44,128 bases of DNA, taken from the NCBI GenBank assembly GCA_030754885.1, contig JASLZL010000043.1, forward strand, positions 1 through 44,128, in the 5' to 3' direction. Shown piece after piece: positions 30,748-37,903 of the stretch. How positions within the stretch are numbered: position 1 is the first letter of the stretch; every line of letters starts with the position of its first letter. The notes under the pieces are model-generated. The model was not told the DNA's origin. It saw only the letters and a list, made by a program, of their open reading frames with translations, and searched no databases. Made by a program: the position numbers and the translations under genes. The stretch is from Rhodospirillales bacterium. GTDB lineage: Bacteria; Pseudomonadota; Alphaproteobacteria; Rhodospirillales; JASLLZ01.

Positions 30748-31131
30748 ATGGCCACGAATATGGACGGGCGGCCCCCGGTGGCGATCGGTCATGTCAGTCT
30801 CACGGTCAGTGATGTCGGCCAGGCAACACGGTTTTTCGAGACCGTGGGCATGCGCTTGATTCATCTTGGCGAGACCGTTGCGGTCCTCCAACTAAGGGGC
30901 GGCACTCACCTCGTGGTGAAGCCGGCCGACCGCCCCATCGCGCCTGGAAGCAAAGCGCCCTTCGATCTGATGGTCGACGACATCGAAGCGGCACGCAAGG
31001 ATTACGCGGCTTTGGGGATGGAGCCGTCGACCATGGAAGCGAGTCGGGTTCACGAGTGGTTCACCGTTCGCGGTCCCGACGGCTACGAGATCACCATCAC
31101 CTCGTCCCACGCCTCGGATCAGCCGATTTAG
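30748..31131 (+). CDS. Single-domain VOC (glyoxalase/bleomycin-resistance-like) protein
   Basis: This protein has 127 residues. One VOC module starts AIGHVSLTVSDVGQATRFFE, with His as first metal ligand, and ends VRGPDGYEITIT, with Glu as last ligand. Such proteins act as dimers on glutathione adducts, catechols or antibiotics, and the substrate is unknown. The start at 30748 has GGAGGAAG 6 bases upstream. It shares a 133-base intergenic region with the GST gene, and both families can act on glutathione conjugates. Confidence 0.85.
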   Translation: MATNMDGRPPVAIGHVSLTVSDVGQATRFFETVGMRLIHLGETVAVLQLRGGTHLVVKPADRPIAPGSKAPFDLMVDDIEAARKDYAALGMEPSTMEASRVHEWFTVRGPDGYEITITSSHASDQPI

Positions 31132-31317
31132 GGGTTTTGGCCGTAAATTTTGGCCTCAATCGTTGGTATTAGCCCTAACCGTGTGTTAAAATTTCCACGG
31201 CGTTCTGGAAATATCCTGTGACGTCCCGTCGTTATACTCTTTTGCATGCCGGGTTTGTCCTATTGTTTTCAGGATATCCATCGATATGGTTGGTGCCGCA
31301 ATTCGGTCGGATCGTCG

Positions 31318-32274
31318 ATGAAAGTCCTGTGGAGGTTACGCTCTGAATGTTCCGGCCGCCTGTTCGACGGGCGGCCGCTGAGCCGACCCCGAGAACAGGG
31401 CAGGCGAAGCCCGTGGATCCGGATCGTGGGGATCGTGGGGGTCGTTGCGCTGATCGCCTGGATCGGCCAGCCCATGGTGCTGGCCGACGACCAGCCCGGT
31501 AAGAATAGGCTTATATCGTCCGTCAACCCCAAGCGACCCGTCGCGTCGCTTGGCGAAAGCCGATGGGCGGTCGTCGGTATCTCGGGCGAGGTTATGGCCG
31601 CGCGCCTTGATACCGAGACGTGGCGGCCGGTGAGCGCGGGCACCCGCCTCGCACCGGCGAGCCAGCTCAAAACGGGTGCCGATGGCTGGGCGCTGCTGGT
31701 GCGCGGCAAAAGCGATATCACCGTGATGTCCAACAGCCACATGTCCGTGCCGAAGCAGCCACAGCATCCGTTGGCGACACGAATACTGCAGTCCCTCGGC
31801 ACCCTTTTGCTCCGCGTCGAGAAGCGGCCCGGACAACGGTTCGAGGTCGAAACGCCGTACCTGATTGCCGGCGTCAAGGGTACGACCTTTAGCGTCAACG
31901 TCGAAAACAAGGGTGCCACCGCCAGCGTCGAAGAAGGCACGGTTGGCGTGTCAACGAACGATAGCGATGGCGGAGTGGAAGTCGATGTCACGGTCGGGCG
32001 GACCGCCAGCGTGTCCTCCGCACCGGGCGCCGACGTTGAGGTCGGCCCAACTCCCGCGGGATCAGGCCGTGCCGCCGGTGCGGGTCAGCCGGGTCGTTCC
32101 AAGGGCGCCGTTGGCCAAGGCGCCGGAAAGAGTGCGGCCGCTAGTCCTGGCCCTAGCCAAGGCGCTGGAAACAGTGACGGCCAAAATGGCAACAGTAGCG
32201 GAAGCGGCAATAGCGACGGCAACAACGGCGGTGGCAAAGGTGGCGGCAACGGCGGCGGGGGGCCACCGAATTGA
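31318..32274 (+). CDS. FecR-domain exported protein with Gly/Asn-rich tail
   Basis: This protein has 318 residues from the ATG at 31318. An in-frame ATG at 31246 would add 24. A single hydrophobic helix (IVGIVGVVALIAWIGQ) serves as signal or anchor. The FecR domain follows: PVSAGTRLAPASQLKTGADG, then FEVETPYLIAGVKGTTFSVN and SVEEGTVGVS. FecR domains usually sense or transmit signals in the periplasm. The last 90 residues are low-complexity Gly/Ser/Asn/Ala, ending GGGNGGGGPPN. The TGA overlaps the TTG start of the kinase (TTGA), so the two are translated together and probably form one sensor. Confidence 0.82.
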   Translation: MKVLWRLRSECSGRLFDGRPLSRPREQGRRSPWIRIVGIVGVVALIAWIGQPMVLADDQPGKNRLISSVNPKRPVASLGESRWAVVGISGEVMAARLDTETWRPVSAGTRLAPASQLKTGADGWALLVRGKSDITVMSNSHMSVPKQPQHPLATRILQSLGTLLLRVEKRPGQRFEVETPYLIAGVKGTTFSVNVENKGATASVEEGTVGVSTNDSDGGVEVDVTVGRTASVSSAPGADVEVGPTPAGSGRAAGAGQPGRSKGAVGQGAGKSAAASPGPSQGAGNSDGQNGNSSGSGNSDGNNGGGKGGGNGGGGPPN

Positions 32275-34544
32275 CTTTCGCAAGCATTATCAAACGGTGC
32301 CACCGATGGATAAGGGCACGAAGGCGGCGCGGGCATTTGGTGGTGTTCGTGTTAGTTGCTGGTTTTTATCTGGCCGGTGGTCTGGAGTTCCTGGAATACA
32401 AGCTGATTGATTTTCGTTTCCTGGTAGCGCCTCGCCAGGCGACAGAACAGGTGATCGTGGTCGATATCGACACGACCAGCCTCCGCGAGTTGGGCGTCTG
32501 GCCATGGCCGCGCGCCTATCACGCAAAGGTGCTCGATACCCTATTGGCGGCCGGCGCTAGGCGGATTGCCTTTGATATCGATTTCAGTTCCCGGTCCACC
32601 GCCAAAGACGATCGCGCCTTCGCGGAGGCATTGAAGCGGGGCGCCGGCAGAGTGGTCCTTCCAATCTTCAAACAGTTCGATCCCGCCGCGGCGGACAAGC
32701 AAGCAACCACGTTAACGTTCCCGCTGGCGGCGTTTGCCAAGCATGCGGACCTGGGGTTCGTAAACGTCCGCCCGGAGATTGACGGCCTGGTCCGGCGCAT
32801 GGCTCTGGATGATGAATGGAAGGGAACAACACTGCCGACCATGGTAGCCGCACTTGCACCCGTGGAGTTCCAGGGAACCGGAATGTTTTATATTGATTTC
32901 GGCATTCTTCCGGAAACGATTCCCCGGATTTCCTATGCGCGGGTCCTAAACGGTGCTGTCGATCCGGACCTCTTCGCCGGCAAGGACATCATTGTCGGCA
33001 CCACGGCGATTGAGTTGGGCGATCAGTTGGCCGTTCCTCTTTACCGTGCGGCCTCGGGTTCCATCGTACAGGCATCCGCGTACGAATCCTTGGTCCAGGG
33101 CCGGGACCTGCGGCGCGTTGCCGTAATCCCGATCCTTGTCTTTGCCTTGTTGCTGGCGTTGATCGTGGGCCCGGAATTGGCGGCGCTTTCGTGGCGCCAG
33201 GGATTGGGCGTTCTTGCCGTCGTCAGCGGAGGTGGTGTTGGTACCGCTCTTGCCCTTGAGCTGTTCTTGCCGGTTCTTTTGGACGTGACACCATGGCTGC
33301 TGGTGCCCGTCGGTTCTTATCTTCTCGGCCTGGTCGCCACGATTGACCGGCAAACCCTTCGCCTTGCCCTGGCCAGCCTCACGGCCACTCACCGCCGCGC
33401 CGTGATTATGGACCTCGTGGGAAACAGCTTCGACGGTGTTATTATCGTGGGCGCCGGAGGCGTAATAGATATGTTCAATCAGGCCGCCGAACGCCTCTTC
33501 GAACGTCCGGCGTCGGAAGTTATCGGCGCCAAGATCGGAATCCTATTCCCGCCCTCACCGGATGGTCGGGACGACGAGGGCGCCAGGATCGCCGGTGTCA
33601 TTGAGTCCGGTGATTCGAACACGCTGCCTATCGGCATGCGCGAGATTGGGGGCCGGCGCAAGGACGGCACTGCCTTTGAAATGGAGCTCACCGTCTCCGA
33701 ATACCGACTGAAGACAGAAAACCGTAGCGCGGCGAAACGACGCTCGCGACACCATGAAGCCTTCGTATTCACTGTGCGCGATATCACGGAACGCAAGAGG
33801 GCCGAGGAAAATAAGCGTTGTCACCAGGCCGAACTGGCCCATGTCCAACGCCTAAGCACGATCGGCGAGATGGCTGCCGAGATGGCCCACGAAATTAATC
33901 AACCCTTTGGTGCTATTGCAGCCTATGCCGAGGGGTGCATGCATCGGTCGCGTAATCAAAAGTTAAAGCAGGACGAACTGTATCTCGCGGTTGAAAGCAT
34001 TTCCGAACAAGCTCAGCGGGCGGGCAATATTATCAACCAAATTCGGGGATACGTTCGTAAGGCTGAAGCTCTCAAGCCGGGCGTCGATGTCAACAATGCG
34101 GTTGAGGACGCGGCTGGATTCTTCGGCGGCGGCATCCGCGTGGATGAAACGATTATGTGGCTGGACTTGGCGGAATCCCTGCCAACGGTGCAGGCAAACC
34201 CACTTCAAATTCAGCAAGTCATTTTGAACCTGGCATGGAACGGGATTGAGGCGATGAACGGCAACGGGCCGCAGCCACGCCAATTGTCAATCCGCACGTC
34301 GCGTCCGAACGGCAAGTTCATTGAGATCGCCGTTCAAGATACCGGGCCGGGCATTCCGACCGATGTGCAAGACCACGTCTTTGATCCGTTCTTCACGACG
34401 AAATCCGACGGCCTGGGAATGGGCCTTTCGATCAGCCGTTCGATCGTTAATGATCATGGCGGCCAGTTGTGGTGTGCGCCAAGTAACGAACGGGGAACGA
34501 TCTTTCGTTTCACGTTGCCCGTCGAGGCGCAGGTCGCGAACTAA
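32271..34544 (+). CDS. CHASE2-PAS sensor histidine kinase
   Basis: This membrane kinase has 757 residues. After a first transmembrane helix (residues 24-38) comes a large extracytoplasmic CHASE2 domain (about 40-275). Three transmembrane helices (about 282-355), a PAS domain (MDLVGNSFDGVIIVGAGGVI, about 372-510) and the HisKA region with the phosphorylatable His540 in MAHEINQPFGAIAAYAEG follow. The HATPase has the N box LAWNGIEAM, G1 DTGPGIP, F box FDPFFTTKSDG and G2 GLGMGL. It starts at a TTG overlapping the FecR stop, and no ATG fits the frame nearby. The domain order suggests a FixL/DctB-like kinase that reads periplasmic state through CHASE2 and the FecR partner, and passes it to the FixJ-like regulator 227 bases downstream. 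Confidence 0.9.
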   Translation: MTFASIIKRCHRWIRARRRRGHLVVFVLVAGFYLAGGLEFLEYKLIDFRFLVAPRQATEQVIVVDIDTTSLRELGVWPWPRAYHAKVLDTLLAAGARRIAFDIDFSSRSTAKDDRAFAEALKRGAGRVVLPIFKQFDPAAADKQATTLTFPLAAFAKHADLGFVNVRPEIDGLVRRMALDDEWKGTTLPTMVAALAPVEFQGTGMFYIDFGILPETIPRISYARVLNGAVDPDLFAGKDIIVGTTAIELGDQLAVPLYRAASGSIVQASAYESLVQGRDLRRVAVIPILVFALLLALIVGPELAALSWRQGLGVLAVVSGGGVGTALALELFLPVLLDVTPWLLVPVGSYLLGLVATIDRQTLRLALASLTATHRRAVIMDLVGNSFDGVIIVGAGGVIDMFNQAAERLFERPASEVIGAKIGILFPPSPDGRDDEGARIAGVIESGDSNTLPIGMREIGGRRKDGTAFEMELTVSEYRLKTENRSAAKRRSRHHEAFVFTVRDITERKRAEENKRCHQAELAHVQRLSTIGEMAAEMAHEINQPFGAIAAYAEGCMHRSRNQKLKQDELYLAVESISEQAQRAGNIINQIRGYVRKAEALKPGVDVNNAVEDAAGFFGGGIRVDETIMWLDLAESLPTVQANPLQIQQVILNLAWNGIEAMNGNGPQPRQLSIRTSRPNGKFIEIAVQDTGPGIPTDVQDHVFDPFFTTKSDGLGMGLSISRSIVNDHGGQLWCAPSNERGTIFRFTLPVEAQVAN

Positions 34545-34771
34545 TTTGGAAAATCTCATGTGGCATGTAAAACCTAGGGACTGTGGTGTCGCCGAACGGC
34601 AGGCCTGGAAACGCGGGGAGAGCTGGGTGGCGGCGCGCACCACCCGAGCCAACAATCTAAGGGCCCTGTGAGGCCGGATGCTAGCGCAAGAAACAATAAG
34701 AGGGACGTGATTTACGAATGAAAAGAGAAAGCAACATTCATTCCACTACTGCACCGCTCACTGAGGCCGGT
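34545..34771 (+). other. Kinase-regulator intergenic region
   Basis: This stretch of 227 bases has no convincing gene or terminator. GAGGG near 34702 could serve an alternative regulator start at 34718. The short open frame ending at 34671 overlaps the kinase end and looks like chance. Confidence 0.3.
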
Positions 34772-35401
34772 ATGACAACCCCCGAACCAACCGTCTTCGT
34801 GGTTGATGACGATGAGGCGATTTGCAATGCCCTGCAATGGCTGATTGAGTCGGTGAACTTGAAGGTGGAAACGTACACGTCGGGCCACGAATTTTTGGAA
34901 ACTTATGAACCGGGACGACCTGGCTGCGTCGTTCTTGATGTGCGCATGCCGGAGATGAGCGGGCTTGACGTTCAACGCGAACTGGAAGCGCGTTCCATTG
35001 ATCTTCCGGTTATTATTCTGACCGGCTACGGTGACATGCAGACCGCCATTCGCGCCTTCAAGTCCGGTGCCGTCGATTTCGTTCAAAAGCCCTTCAATAA
35101 CCAAAACCTGCTGGATGCTATCCAAAGAGCAGTCCGCAAGAATGTCGAAGTTGCCGAGCAGAATGTCTTTATCGCAGAGGTCCGCCAACGGCTCGATCTC
35201 CTGTCGACGGGAGAAAGTGAAGTTCTCGAAATGATTCTGGCCGGGAATACCAATTCCAAAATCGCCGAACACCTTGGCATCAGCAAGAAAACGGTCGAAG
35301 CACGACGCGCCAAGTTGATGAAGAAAATGAACGCTGCATCAGTGGTTGACCTTACCCGAATGGTGGTGGTGTTGGAGCCATGGCCGGACGAGGCGACGTA
35401 G
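34772..35401 (+). CDS. FixJ/TodT-family response regulator
   Basis: This protein has 209 residues from the ATG at 34772, which has GAGG 5 bases upstream and gives the usual short lead before FVVDDD. A start at 34718 would add 18 residues. The receiver domain has the acidic pocket Asp13-Asp14, phospho-acceptor Asp56 (CVVLDVRMPEMSG), the Thr in ILTGYGDM and Lys in VQKPFNN. The C-terminal LuxR/FixJ helix-turn-helix (ESEVLEMILAGNTNSKIAEH, then LGISKKTVEARRAKLMKKM) binds DNA. It is the evident partner of the CHASE2 kinase. Target promoters are not identified. Confidence 0.92.
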   Translation: MTTPEPTVFVVDDDEAICNALQWLIESVNLKVETYTSGHEFLETYEPGRPGCVVLDVRMPEMSGLDVQRELEARSIDLPVIILTGYGDMQTAIRAFKSGAVDFVQKPFNNQNLLDAIQRAVRKNVEVAEQNVFIAEVRQRLDLLSTGESEVLEMILAGNTNSKIAEHLGISKKTVEARRAKLMKKMNAASVVDLTRMVVVLEPWPDEAT

Positions 35402-35529
35402 TCGAGAGGTAGTTCGGGCACCTGGATTTGGTGAACAGTGACAATGCTGACTGGTGTATGTTAGAATTAGTGCAAATTCTTGCGCGGTTGGTAGGCGGCT
35501 TTTTCGGATAGAATACAGGTGCGATTGAG

Positions 35530-36645
35530 ATGAGTTCCGTCGAGAGCATCTATCTCTTTAAACTTGCCAAGGATAAATCACCTCGGGGGAGAAAGGCGTT
35601 CGCCGAGAAGCTTTCAGAGCTGTTCCTCGACAAGTATCCCGCCTTGTCGTCGCGGGAACAGACTTTGATGTTCGACATCCTGTGCCTCCTTGTCCACGAC
35701 ATTGAAATGCCGTTGCGCAAGGCGATCTCCGAACAATTGGCGGAGGAGCCGAGCCTACCGCGAAATCTGGCCAAGCTGCTTGCCAACGACGCCATTGAGA
35801 TCGCGTTTCCAATTCTTTCCCTCAGCCGGGCACTGCTGGACGAAGATCTGATCGAAATCATCCGTGGCCGCTCGGTCGAGCACCAATTGGCCATCACCGT
35901 CCGGCCGTCGGTTAGCGAGGACGTCTCTGATGCGCTCGTGGAAACCGGGAACGGGACCGTGATCACAAGCATGCTCAAGAACGAGAATGCAGAGATCTCA
36001 AGCAAGACGATCGCCTATCTGGTTGATGAATCTCAGCGCGTCACCGCGTATCAGGAACCGATCCTGCGCCGCAAGGACTTGGATTCCGTCCTGGCTGAGC
36101 GGATGTTCACGTGGGTTTCCACCGCACTCCGTCAATATATCCTCGATACATACGAACTCGACCCCGACTTTATCGACGACGTCATGAAGGGGGCGGTCCA
36201 GGCAGAGACCGATGCCGTAACGTCTGAAAGAGAGTCTCCGAATGCCGCCCGGGAGTTGGTCGATCAAGTATCGAAAGAAGGAAATGTGACGACCGATCTC
36301 ATGATCAAGGCCCTGCACGAGGGCGAAGTTTCAATGTTTGTGTCCATGTTTCATGAACTGACGGACGTCGAAGAAAGCATCATCCTTCACATGCTTACGG
36401 AACCGGCGGGAACGGGGTTGGCCATTGCGTGCAAGTCCGCCGGTCTCGACAAATCGGTTTTTTCCTCCATCTATGCACTCGGCCGCAAATCTTCGGCCGC
36501 TTCGGATGCGAAGGTGCACAAGGATTTGCTCAAGGTCGAGCACCGTTATGACCATATGACCAAGACTGCGGCCCGCGACGTGGTTGCCCGATGGCGGCGT
36601 AACGTGGGCTACGGGGCGGCGATAAACGAGCTAGAGGTGGGTTAG
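35530..36645 (+). CDS. DUF2336-domain protein
   Basis: This soluble, all-helical protein has 371 residues and is of a type found mainly in alphaproteobacteria. DUF2336 proteins look like alpha-solenoid (HEAT-like) repeats and have no established biochemical role. Typical segments are TLMFDILCLLVHDIEMPLRK, IAFPILSLSRALLDEDLIEI and the C-terminal LTEPAGTGLAIACKSAGLDK. There is no catalytic motif, signal peptide or membrane helix. It lies 128 bases after the response regulator on the same strand and may be regulated by it or act as an adaptor in the same signalling route. Confidence 0.82.
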   Translation: MSSVESIYLFKLAKDKSPRGRKAFAEKLSELFLDKYPALSSREQTLMFDILCLLVHDIEMPLRKAISEQLAEEPSLPRNLAKLLANDAIEIAFPILSLSRALLDEDLIEIIRGRSVEHQLAITVRPSVSEDVSDALVETGNGTVITSMLKNENAEISSKTIAYLVDESQRVTAYQEPILRRKDLDSVLAERMFTWVSTALRQYILDTYELDPDFIDDVMKGAVQAETDAVTSERESPNAARELVDQVSKEGNVTTDLMIKALHEGEVSMFVSMFHELTDVEESIILHMLTEPAGTGLAIACKSAGLDKSVFSSIYALGRKSSAASDAKVHKDLLKVEHRYDHMTKTAARDVVARWRRNVGYGAAINELEVG

Positions 36646-36706
36646 AAGGACGTCGTCCACATCCTTGGAACGAAGAGCAGGCCGTATCCGCCTAATCGGA
36701 AGTGCG

Positions 36707-37522
36707 CTATGCGCGCGCGAAGGAGCGTCGGTCATTGTGCTGCCGCCGTTCCAGCCCCTCCCATCCCATCATTTGCTGTCTTCGGTTGCCGCCCTGCCGC
36801 TGTTTCCAGAGGGCGGTATTAAAGGCACGTTTTCCCGTCTCGTCGTCATGAACCAATGGAACCTCGGCAGTATTATCCGGCTTATTCTCATGTTCAATCT
36901 GCTGCCAATTGTCTGACCGTGCGACGCCTTTCCATTTAAGATCCGCCCATTCGCGAAGTACTTCCGAGGTGTCTTTTCCGACGACGTTTTCAATTTCCGC
37001 TCGGACCTTGGCGCCATCGAATGTGTCCTCGGTACCCGGCACCATGATATCTTCGGCCTGGGCGATCGCCATACGGATAGTGGACCGTTTATAGCGTGCC
37101 CCTAGGAGGCTGATGCCAATCTCATCGACGATTTCGTTGGCCTTGGCCCAGGCTTCCTCGTCATTCGTGTCGTCAAAGCTAAAGAAGTACCCCTCACCCT
37201 GAACCTCACCCCATGGTCCACGGTCGCCCACCTGCTTCTCCAACACCCGCTCGCAGATCAATTCGAGGGCGGAGAGCAAACGCTCGGAGGGTTTCCCGAT
37301 GATGTCAAAGAGATCCGAGAGAGGAACGATGTAGACTTTGCCGAATACACCCCTACGTTCCTTCAGGATGTCTTCGGACGATACGGTTCCGTCAAAGGAT
37401 AAATCGGATTGCGCGCTCTTCGCCGAGTTCCCTCGGGCTGCCCCATTTTTCTTTTTTCCTCGTCGGTCCGGCCGTTTGCCCAAGACGTTTCCGACGAATT
37501 TAGAGAGCACTTTGCTTGTCAT
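36707..37522 (-). CDS. Unknown protein with a possible degenerate GGDEF-like domain
   Basis: This protein has 271 residues and an Lys/Arg-rich N-terminus (to about residue 40) and a basic, Gln/Arg-rich C-terminus. Between about 60 and 155, the order of strands and helices resembles a GGDEF/cyclase fold: VYIVPLSDLFDIIGKPSERL, a helix, then GEVQGEGYFFSFDD and EEAWAKANEIVDEIGISLLG. The active-site loop would be QGEG instead of GGDEF, so catalysis is unlikely. This fold assignment is inference from pattern only. There is no membrane segment. It is convergent with the DUF2336 gene, and its start at 37522 has GAGG upstream. Confidence 0.55.
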   Translation of the reverse strand: MTSKVLSKFVGNVLGKRPDRRGKKKNGAARGNSAKSAQSDLSFDGTVSSEDILKERRGVFGKVYIVPLSDLFDIIGKPSERLLSALELICERVLEKQVGDRGPWGEVQGEGYFFSFDDTNDEEAWAKANEIVDEIGISLLGARYKRSTIRMAIAQAEDIMVPGTEDTFDGAKVRAEIENVVGKDTSEVLREWADLKWKGVARSDNWQQIEHENKPDNTAEVPLVHDDETGKRAFNTALWKQRQGGNRRQQMMGWEGLERRQHNDRRSFARA

Positions 37523-37903
37523 ATAGCGCGCCTCTTCATACCAGATCTAGTGCCGCCTTCTAGAGACGACCCCCTTTCTAGCACATCCAACGCAGGAATT
37601 ATAGCATATATATTGAGTTATTTAGTAAATAAAAAGGGTTAACCCTAACTTTATTCGGCTTTAGAAGAATTCTAATTTTTCATCTTGCGATGACACTTTT
37701 ACCGATATTTTTAACCGTACCATTCACTAAAAAGTTGCTTAAATCTAAGCCGTCACTTTATCCCTGTTTTAAGCCAAAGCAAAAGAGGAAACGCAGTATG
37801 TTGGCGAATATCACGTGCTTTCGGTACGTGCGGTTGGTTTTCGCTAGGCCAGAGGCCTTTACGACCGCTTTTCGACAAAAAGCAGGAATTCGGACCAGAA
37901 GAT
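37523..37903. other. AT-rich intergenic region without a clear gene
   Basis: These 381 bases are much richer in A/T than the neighbours, especially 37600-37760. They contain a perfect 12-base palindrome AGGGTTAACCCT (37635-37646), in-phase A/T tracts and a short ORF at 37798-37965. That ORF has a good ribosome site (AGAGGAAA) but encodes a poorly protein-like, Arg-rich product running into the convergent transporter gene. It could be a leader, sRNA or promoter region, or a scar of past insertion. I see no terminator. Confidence 0.4.

Follow-up and report, generated by a model that had tools for sequence, protein, structure and literature searches.

The pairing of FecR and CHASE2 domains is widespread and already in print. 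In the BiofilmReg operon of Burkholderia, as presented in the available part of the source, a FecR-domain gene immediately precedes one for a CHASE2-PAS histidine kinase, and the operon also holds a response-regulator gene (PMC5192318). Similarly, the accessible portion of another report describes a Campylobacterota cluster with the order CHASE2 adenylate cyclase, FecR and TPR (PMC9239204). SpbR, whose family includes DUF2336 proteins, appears among the developmental regulators of Caulobacter in the available text of PMC12700997.

Here we analyzed a stretch of 44,128 nucleotides from a Rhodospirillales bacterium (the window), in which genes for a FecR-domain protein and a CHASE2-PAS histidine kinase are followed by those for a FixJ-type regulator, a DUF2336 protein and a convergent GGDEF-like protein. 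An earlier note on this DNA, made from the sequence alone, had read the five genes as possibly one pathway. Part of that interpretation held up, namely the link of FecR with CHASE2, the plausible partnership of the kinase with FixJ, the link of DUF2336 with signaling genes and the probably degenerate GGDEF protein; the single five-gene pathway did not.

The five genes and their layout

The five genes predicted between positions 31318 and 37522 were confirmed to be real and to lie where they had been placed (Table 1), their open reading frames (ORFs), Pfam domains and residues having been checked. All five are open and intact in a second species of the same genus (G001), with 67 to 86% amino acid identity and dN well below dS, and are thus genes rather than chance ORFs. 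Positions 31060 to 31320, a span that takes in the end of the preceding gene and pinpoints no specific site, show a mean column identity of 88% with the same-genus locus. Promoter and terminator scans gave no more matches than chance.

Other candidate elements were rejected. A structured RNA between the kinase and the regulator had a folding z-score of 0.93 and no Rfam match there, and a regulatory motif common to the upstream regions of FecR and the GGDEF-like gene gave 13 matches versus 9.6 expected and was not kept before the GGDEF-like gene.

Table 1. Features of the locus in window coordinates
Feature	Position	Strand	Basis
Region 5' of FecR, likely to hold the promoter or regulatory sites for module A	31132..31317	+	Conservation with same-genus locus
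FecR-domain protein, N-terminal hydrophobic segment, Gly/Ser/Asn-rich tail	31318..32274	+	PF04773, E = 1.6e-10
CHASE2-PAS-HisKA-HATPase_c histidine kinase, TTG start, His540	32271..34544	+	Pfam
FixJ-type response regulator (receiver + GerE)	34718..35401	+	Pfam; NCBIfam FixJ
DUF2336/SpbR-family protein, predicted soluble all-alpha repeat	35530..36645	+	PF10098, NF052659, predicted model
Probable degenerate GGDEF protein, 271 aa, convergent, basic RR-rich tail	36707..37522	-	hhalign; predicted fold
Candidate promoter-like stretch upstream of GGDEF-like gene (TATGCTATAAT)	37590..37620	-	Same-genus conservation; read by eye

The five-gene set is limited to one genus in this sample

We examined 39 CHASE2 loci (19 selected regions and 20 of the 27 non-own matches from a second search); full-length CHASE2 kinases occur in several families among 150 related genomes. 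The whole five-gene set was found only in the window and in one species of the same, marine genus, with the same order and orientation in both. A FixJ-type regulator, DUF2336 or GGDEF-like gene lay near CHASE2 at the same-genus locus and at none of the 38 others, so that the set is genus-limited in this sample. Receiver genes within 2.5 kb of CHASE2 were present in 5 of the 39 loci. These are the same-genus FixJ gene, receiver genes without a detected GerE domain at L069, L070 and L198 (two of the three checked with Pfam), and one at L202 that belongs to a separate kinase-regulator pair. Furthermore, the flanking genes, housekeeping genes included, are near-completely syntenic in the sister species, and the linkage of the five genes there could thus be inertia.

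All five families therefore co-occur beyond this genome in one same-genus species, and nowhere else among the loci examined. They are not one conserved pathway, and the proposal of a single five-gene pathway across the alphaproteobacteria is not supported by the 38 other CHASE2 loci, none of which has a DUF2336 or GGDEF-like gene. The genes split into a module A (FecR, CHASE2-PAS kinase and FixJ) and a module B (DUF2336 and the degenerate GGDEF protein).

FecR recurs beside CHASE2

The FecR protein has a single hydrophobic segment (residues 31 to 57) followed by VLA-DD, which looks like a signal peptide or an anchor; its ORF stays open upstream as far as an ATG at 31246. In Pfam, it matched FecR and, below threshold, DUF7354, and no LysM domain was found. 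Its gene shares a 4-base overlap (TTGA) with the kinase gene. Among the loci with at least 800 nt of upstream sequence, FecR adjoins the CHASE2 gene in 29 of 32, divergently in two cases (L202 and L204), which bears out the claim that FecR and CHASE2 belong together; 7 of the 39 loci had too little upstream sequence to be counted. As to an arrangement of the FecI-FecR kind, FecR is flanked directly by a glyoxalase-like gene on one side and the kinase gene on the other, so that neither immediate neighbor is a sigma-factor gene or a TonB-dependent receptor.

At six loci (L080 to L085), CHASE2-PAS proteins have a GGDEF output in place of the kinase. FecR is adjacent in four of these, and the remaining two have less than 700 nt of upstream sequence.

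A kinase of mixed ancestry and its likely partner

In Pfam, the kinase matched CHASE2 (E = 7.8e-42), PAS_9 (8.5e-7), HisKA (3.3e-9) and HATPase_c (1.9e-23), and His540 was confirmed to lie in HEINQP. Its CHASE2 half is 49 to 50% identical to the kinases of L069 and L070, the transmitters of which are only 27 to 28% identical to its own. The transmitter is 44 to 49% identical to FixL-type kinases without CHASE2, many of which have an adjacent FixJ-type gene, and the PAS domain sides with the CHASE2 half (40% identity to L069). By these identities, the kinase looks like a recombinant of a CHASE2 half and a FixL-type transmitter with different closest kin. Another CHASE2 kinase with a FixL-type transmitter (38%) is that of L071 in genome G068, at a contig edge.

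The regulator matched Response_reg (3.2e-31) and GerE (3.8e-17). Its phospho-acceptor, numbered Asp56 in the earlier note, is correct when counted from the inner MTTPEP start and is Asp74 in the full ORF. Additionally, it is 50 to 54% identical to the closest regulators of FixL-type kinase-regulator pairs. Since the transmitter is of the FixL type and its kin are found beside FixJ genes, FixJ is likely the partner of the CHASE2 kinase, and transmitter homology makes the pairing suggested earlier plausible. The NCBIfam FixL and FixJ models were the best matches for kinase and regulator, at 259.7 bits (equivalog cut-off, 850 bits) and 207.1 bits (NF006900, E = 2e-61; cut-off, 255 bits), both under the cut-off.

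DUF2336 genes often adjoin genes for PAS proteins

The DUF2336 protein matched PF10098 with an E value of 3.8e-62 and 210.6 bits (Pfam gathering cut-off, 34.6). The earlier note gave DUF2336 no assigned role, which is outdated, since NCBIfam names this the SpbR family. SpbR of Caulobacter crescentus was reportedly the subject of a study by Wang and Bowman in 2019. The SpbR model (NF052659) was matched by all 77 members of our DUF2336 alignment; the window protein scored 1.4e-57 and 195.5 bits, well below the curated equivalog cut-off of 400 bits, so that a common function is not implied. Almost nothing on the DUF2336 family is in print within the literature searched. Structure prediction gives a repeat protein made up entirely of helices (mean pLDDT, 82). 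Compared with the PDB, this model had no fold match under E = 0.1, the best being alpha-solenoids, SARM1 and designed repeat proteins among them, and sequence searches for a solved structure of the DUF2336 or the GGDEF-like protein returned nothing significant.

The neighbors of DUF2336 were analyzed in 78 loci from the best 80 matches of one pattern-based scan (L157 and L191 were omitted from alignment A4 and the tree). A signaling gene lies beside DUF2336 in 35 of them, as the next codirectional gene in 26 and as the preceding gene in 9; the far-flank background was 14 signaling ORFs in 669 kb. All 26 downstream genes carry PAS and comprise 17 PAS kinases, 4 PAS-GGDEF proteins (3 with EAL), 3 PAS-GerE proteins and 2 PAS fragments; the domains were called with models built from window seeds, and Pfam confirmed 16 of these 26. 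The 9 preceding genes are receiver or kinase genes. When only kinase or GGDEF proteins 250 aa or longer were counted, PAS was present in 23 of 23 adjacent versus 7 of 11 non-adjacent ones (Fisher P = 0.007), and a hydrophobic segment was lacking in 19 of 23 versus 3 of 11 (Fisher P = 0.005), the related loci not being independent in either test. Mapping the kinase-or-PAS label onto the DUF2336 tree takes 12 changes. One locus, L126, has the order DUF2336, PAS kinase and FixJ. In the window, DUF2336 lies 128 nt beyond FixJ, with a promoter-like match in the gap, whereas its relatives usually abut soluble PAS proteins.

A further 124 DUF2336 ORFs were taken from the 35 genomes matching the GGDEF-like protein and so do not form a random sample; G001 is represented, as are two further genes of the window genome, with the window's own DUF2336 left out. 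A codirectional signaling neighbor was found for 39 of the 124 ORFs; for 25 of these 39, it lies immediately upstream and encodes a GGDEF protein in which the GGDEF motif is intact (two checked with Pfam). The association of DUF2336 with signaling genes thus stands in both sets, next to a large share of genes with no such neighbor (43 of the 78 loci, and 85 of the 124 ORFs, which include a higher-scoring subfamily). Judged from gene neighborhoods, DUF2336 would most likely be an adaptor for PAS sensors.

Other arrangements were also seen around DUF2336. At L152, L153, L154 and L157, a gene for a single-domain receiver comes just before DUF2336, and about 1.5 to 2.1 kb upstream of that gene lies one for FecR (Pfam-confirmed in two). 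In the higher-scoring subfamily, L249, L256, L257, L258 and L262 have a convergent non-signaling neighbor of about 380 to 420 aa; these neighbors resemble one another in the hydrophobic stretch with which they open (MRNAIIGI or a variant of it). Finally, L306, L313, L324 and L338 have tandem DUF2336 genes right after a PAS-GGDEF gene.

A probably degenerate GGDEF-like protein linked to DUF2336

The convergent protein matched nothing in Pfam, even at E values as high as 10, and no NCBIfam family, and PF00990 matched 1 of the 26 members of its family at E = 0.1, the window protein not being that one. Compared with the genome's own GGDEF domains by hhalign, it gave an E value of 8.3e-5 and a probability of 61. 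The signature GG(D/E)EF is absent, since QGEGY replaces it; relatives have RGDQF, EGDNF and similar. The GGDEF-like core covers residues 61 to 160 approximately, with a pLDDT of about 61 to 80 in a model that is weak overall. By reading of this model, the order of strands and helices is that expected of a GGDEF domain, and Foldseek placed GGDEF domains and class III cyclases at the top of its matches, with probabilities as high as 0.99 but a best E value of 4.4e-3, again from the weak model. As the earlier note had suspected, a degenerate, catalytically dead GGDEF-like fold is the most likely reading of the profile comparison and the predicted fold.

Matches to this family occur in 35 of the 150 related genomes, and no viral relatives of the window protein were found. 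The family as a whole belongs to no Pfam or NCBIfam family. Because weak EAL matches (E = 0.005 and 0.016) span most or the whole of that domain in two longer relatives, it looks like decayed GGDEF(-EAL). In this unnamed family (for example L017, L025, L033 and L037), some members of 400 to 590 aa have a decayed EAL-like second half.

For 5 of 50 matches, the distance between the dead-GGDEF gene and DUF2336 is at most 3 kb, compared with 0.36 expected (P = 4e-5, or 5e-4 with two same-genus matches counted once). This proximity was seen in four lineages, with varied orders and orientations.

A proposed pair of neighboring signaling modules

With slightly more confidence than doubt, we regard the locus as two neighboring signaling modules, the envelope sensor A and the DUF2336/dead-GGDEF module B, of which B may tune the kinase. 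The gene content, the domains, the FecR-CHASE2 link, the mixed ancestry of the kinase and the linkage of DUF2336 genes to PAS and dead-GGDEF genes are observed, whereas the protein contacts, phosphotransfer, signal and target genes of both modules are what we infer. In this scheme, FecR would be exported and either membrane-anchored or periplasmic, and its partner would be CHASE2 in the periplasm. From there, the signal would cross the membrane along the helices and reach the FixL-type transmitter by way of the cytoplasmic PAS domain; the transmitter would autophosphorylate on His540, and FixJ would accept the phosphate on Asp74, with GerE as the domain that acts on DNA. Module B would consist of a soluble alpha-solenoid adaptor of the DUF2336/SpbR family and a catalytically dead GGDEF protein. 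As its relatives recurrently pair with PAS proteins, the probable role of DUF2336 is to bind signaling proteins that carry PAS and to set their activity or cell location. In this genus, module B adjoins a PAS-bearing kinase that it may tune, and the meeting of the modules may matter because the kinase has a PAS domain. Against such tuning, FixJ and the 128-nt gap separate DUF2336 from the kinase, and the usual neighbors of DUF2336 are mostly soluble while the window kinase is membrane-bound. The two-module reading also has against it that PAS is common in signaling proteins anyway (the 7 of 11 non-adjacent ones) and that 43 of the 78 and 85 of the 124 DUF2336 genes lack a signaling neighbor. 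We would advance only tentatively the broader proposal that DUF2336/SpbR alpha-solenoids are general partners of cytoplasmic PAS sensors with any output (kinase, GGDEF-EAL or LuxR), with the dead GGDEF(-EAL) family as companion, set in this genus beside a recombinant CHASE2-FixL kinase that they would tune from inside.

A single five-protein pathway, in which FecR acts as co-sensor, FixJ receives its phosphate from the kinase, and both DUF2336 and the dead GGDEF protein serve as downstream adaptors dedicated to this kinase, would fit the order and orientation kept in two species, the arrangement of L126, whose transmitter and regulator are related to the window pair, and the FecR genes upstream of receiver-DUF2336 pairs in four related genomes. 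We nevertheless consider it unlikely, given that neither module B gene was found at the other CHASE2 loci, that the two are neighbors elsewhere without a CHASE2 kinase, and that even the flanking housekeeping genes are syntenic in the sister species. Recurrence of the pair without the kinase would also be expected if DUF2336 and the GGDEF-like protein formed a cell-pole or cell-cycle module like Caulobacter SpbR, unrelated to the adjoining kinase. The SpbR family match and the place of SpbR among Caulobacter developmental regulators, in the part of PMC12700997 available, agree with this; at 195.5 of 400 bits, however, that match does not imply a function in common, and DUF2336 relatives often adjoin PAS kinases and GGDEF proteins, so that we give this explanation as little credit as the single pathway. 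Finally, the confinement to two species of one genus with long synteny is what chance neighbors kept through common ancestry would show, but each sub-pair recurs elsewhere above expectation, which makes chance very improbable.

If DUF2336 is indeed a partner of PAS sensors, a large alphaproteobacterial family would acquire a biochemical role open to testing, and a candidate class of partners would emerge for SpbR, the pole protein of Caulobacter. For its part, the kinase is a natural example of a sensor half on a different transmitter, useful for understanding how CHASE2 and FecR signal.

Comparison with known systems

As in the BiofilmReg operon, a FecR-domain gene adjoins a CHASE2 histidine kinase gene here. 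According to the available part of PMC5192318, however, the BiofilmReg regulator is of the OmpR/CreB type and precedes FecR, its FecR bears LysM, and a DUF4136 gene follows; in our locus, a FixJ-type regulator comes after the kinase, FecR has no detected LysM, and the transmitter is FixL-type. The Campylobacterota cluster likewise combines a CHASE2 input with a FecR-domain partner, but its output is an adenylate cyclase, and the accessible portion of PMC9239204 names no FixJ or DUF2336 gene.

Our locus resembles FixL/FixJ in that a FixL-type transmitter adjoins a FixJ-type regulator gene, and differs from it by the CHASE2 input and by NCBIfam scores under both equivalog cut-offs. With SpbR of Caulobacter crescentus, it has the DUF2336 family in common, although the protein here scores below the SpbR equivalog cut-off. 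Finally, the convergent protein probably shares with known degenerate GGDEF and GGDEF-EAL proteins a cyclase/GGDEF-like fold that has lost its signature motif, and it is set apart from them by matching no Pfam or NCBIfam model, by its short form and RR-rich tail and by its link to DUF2336.
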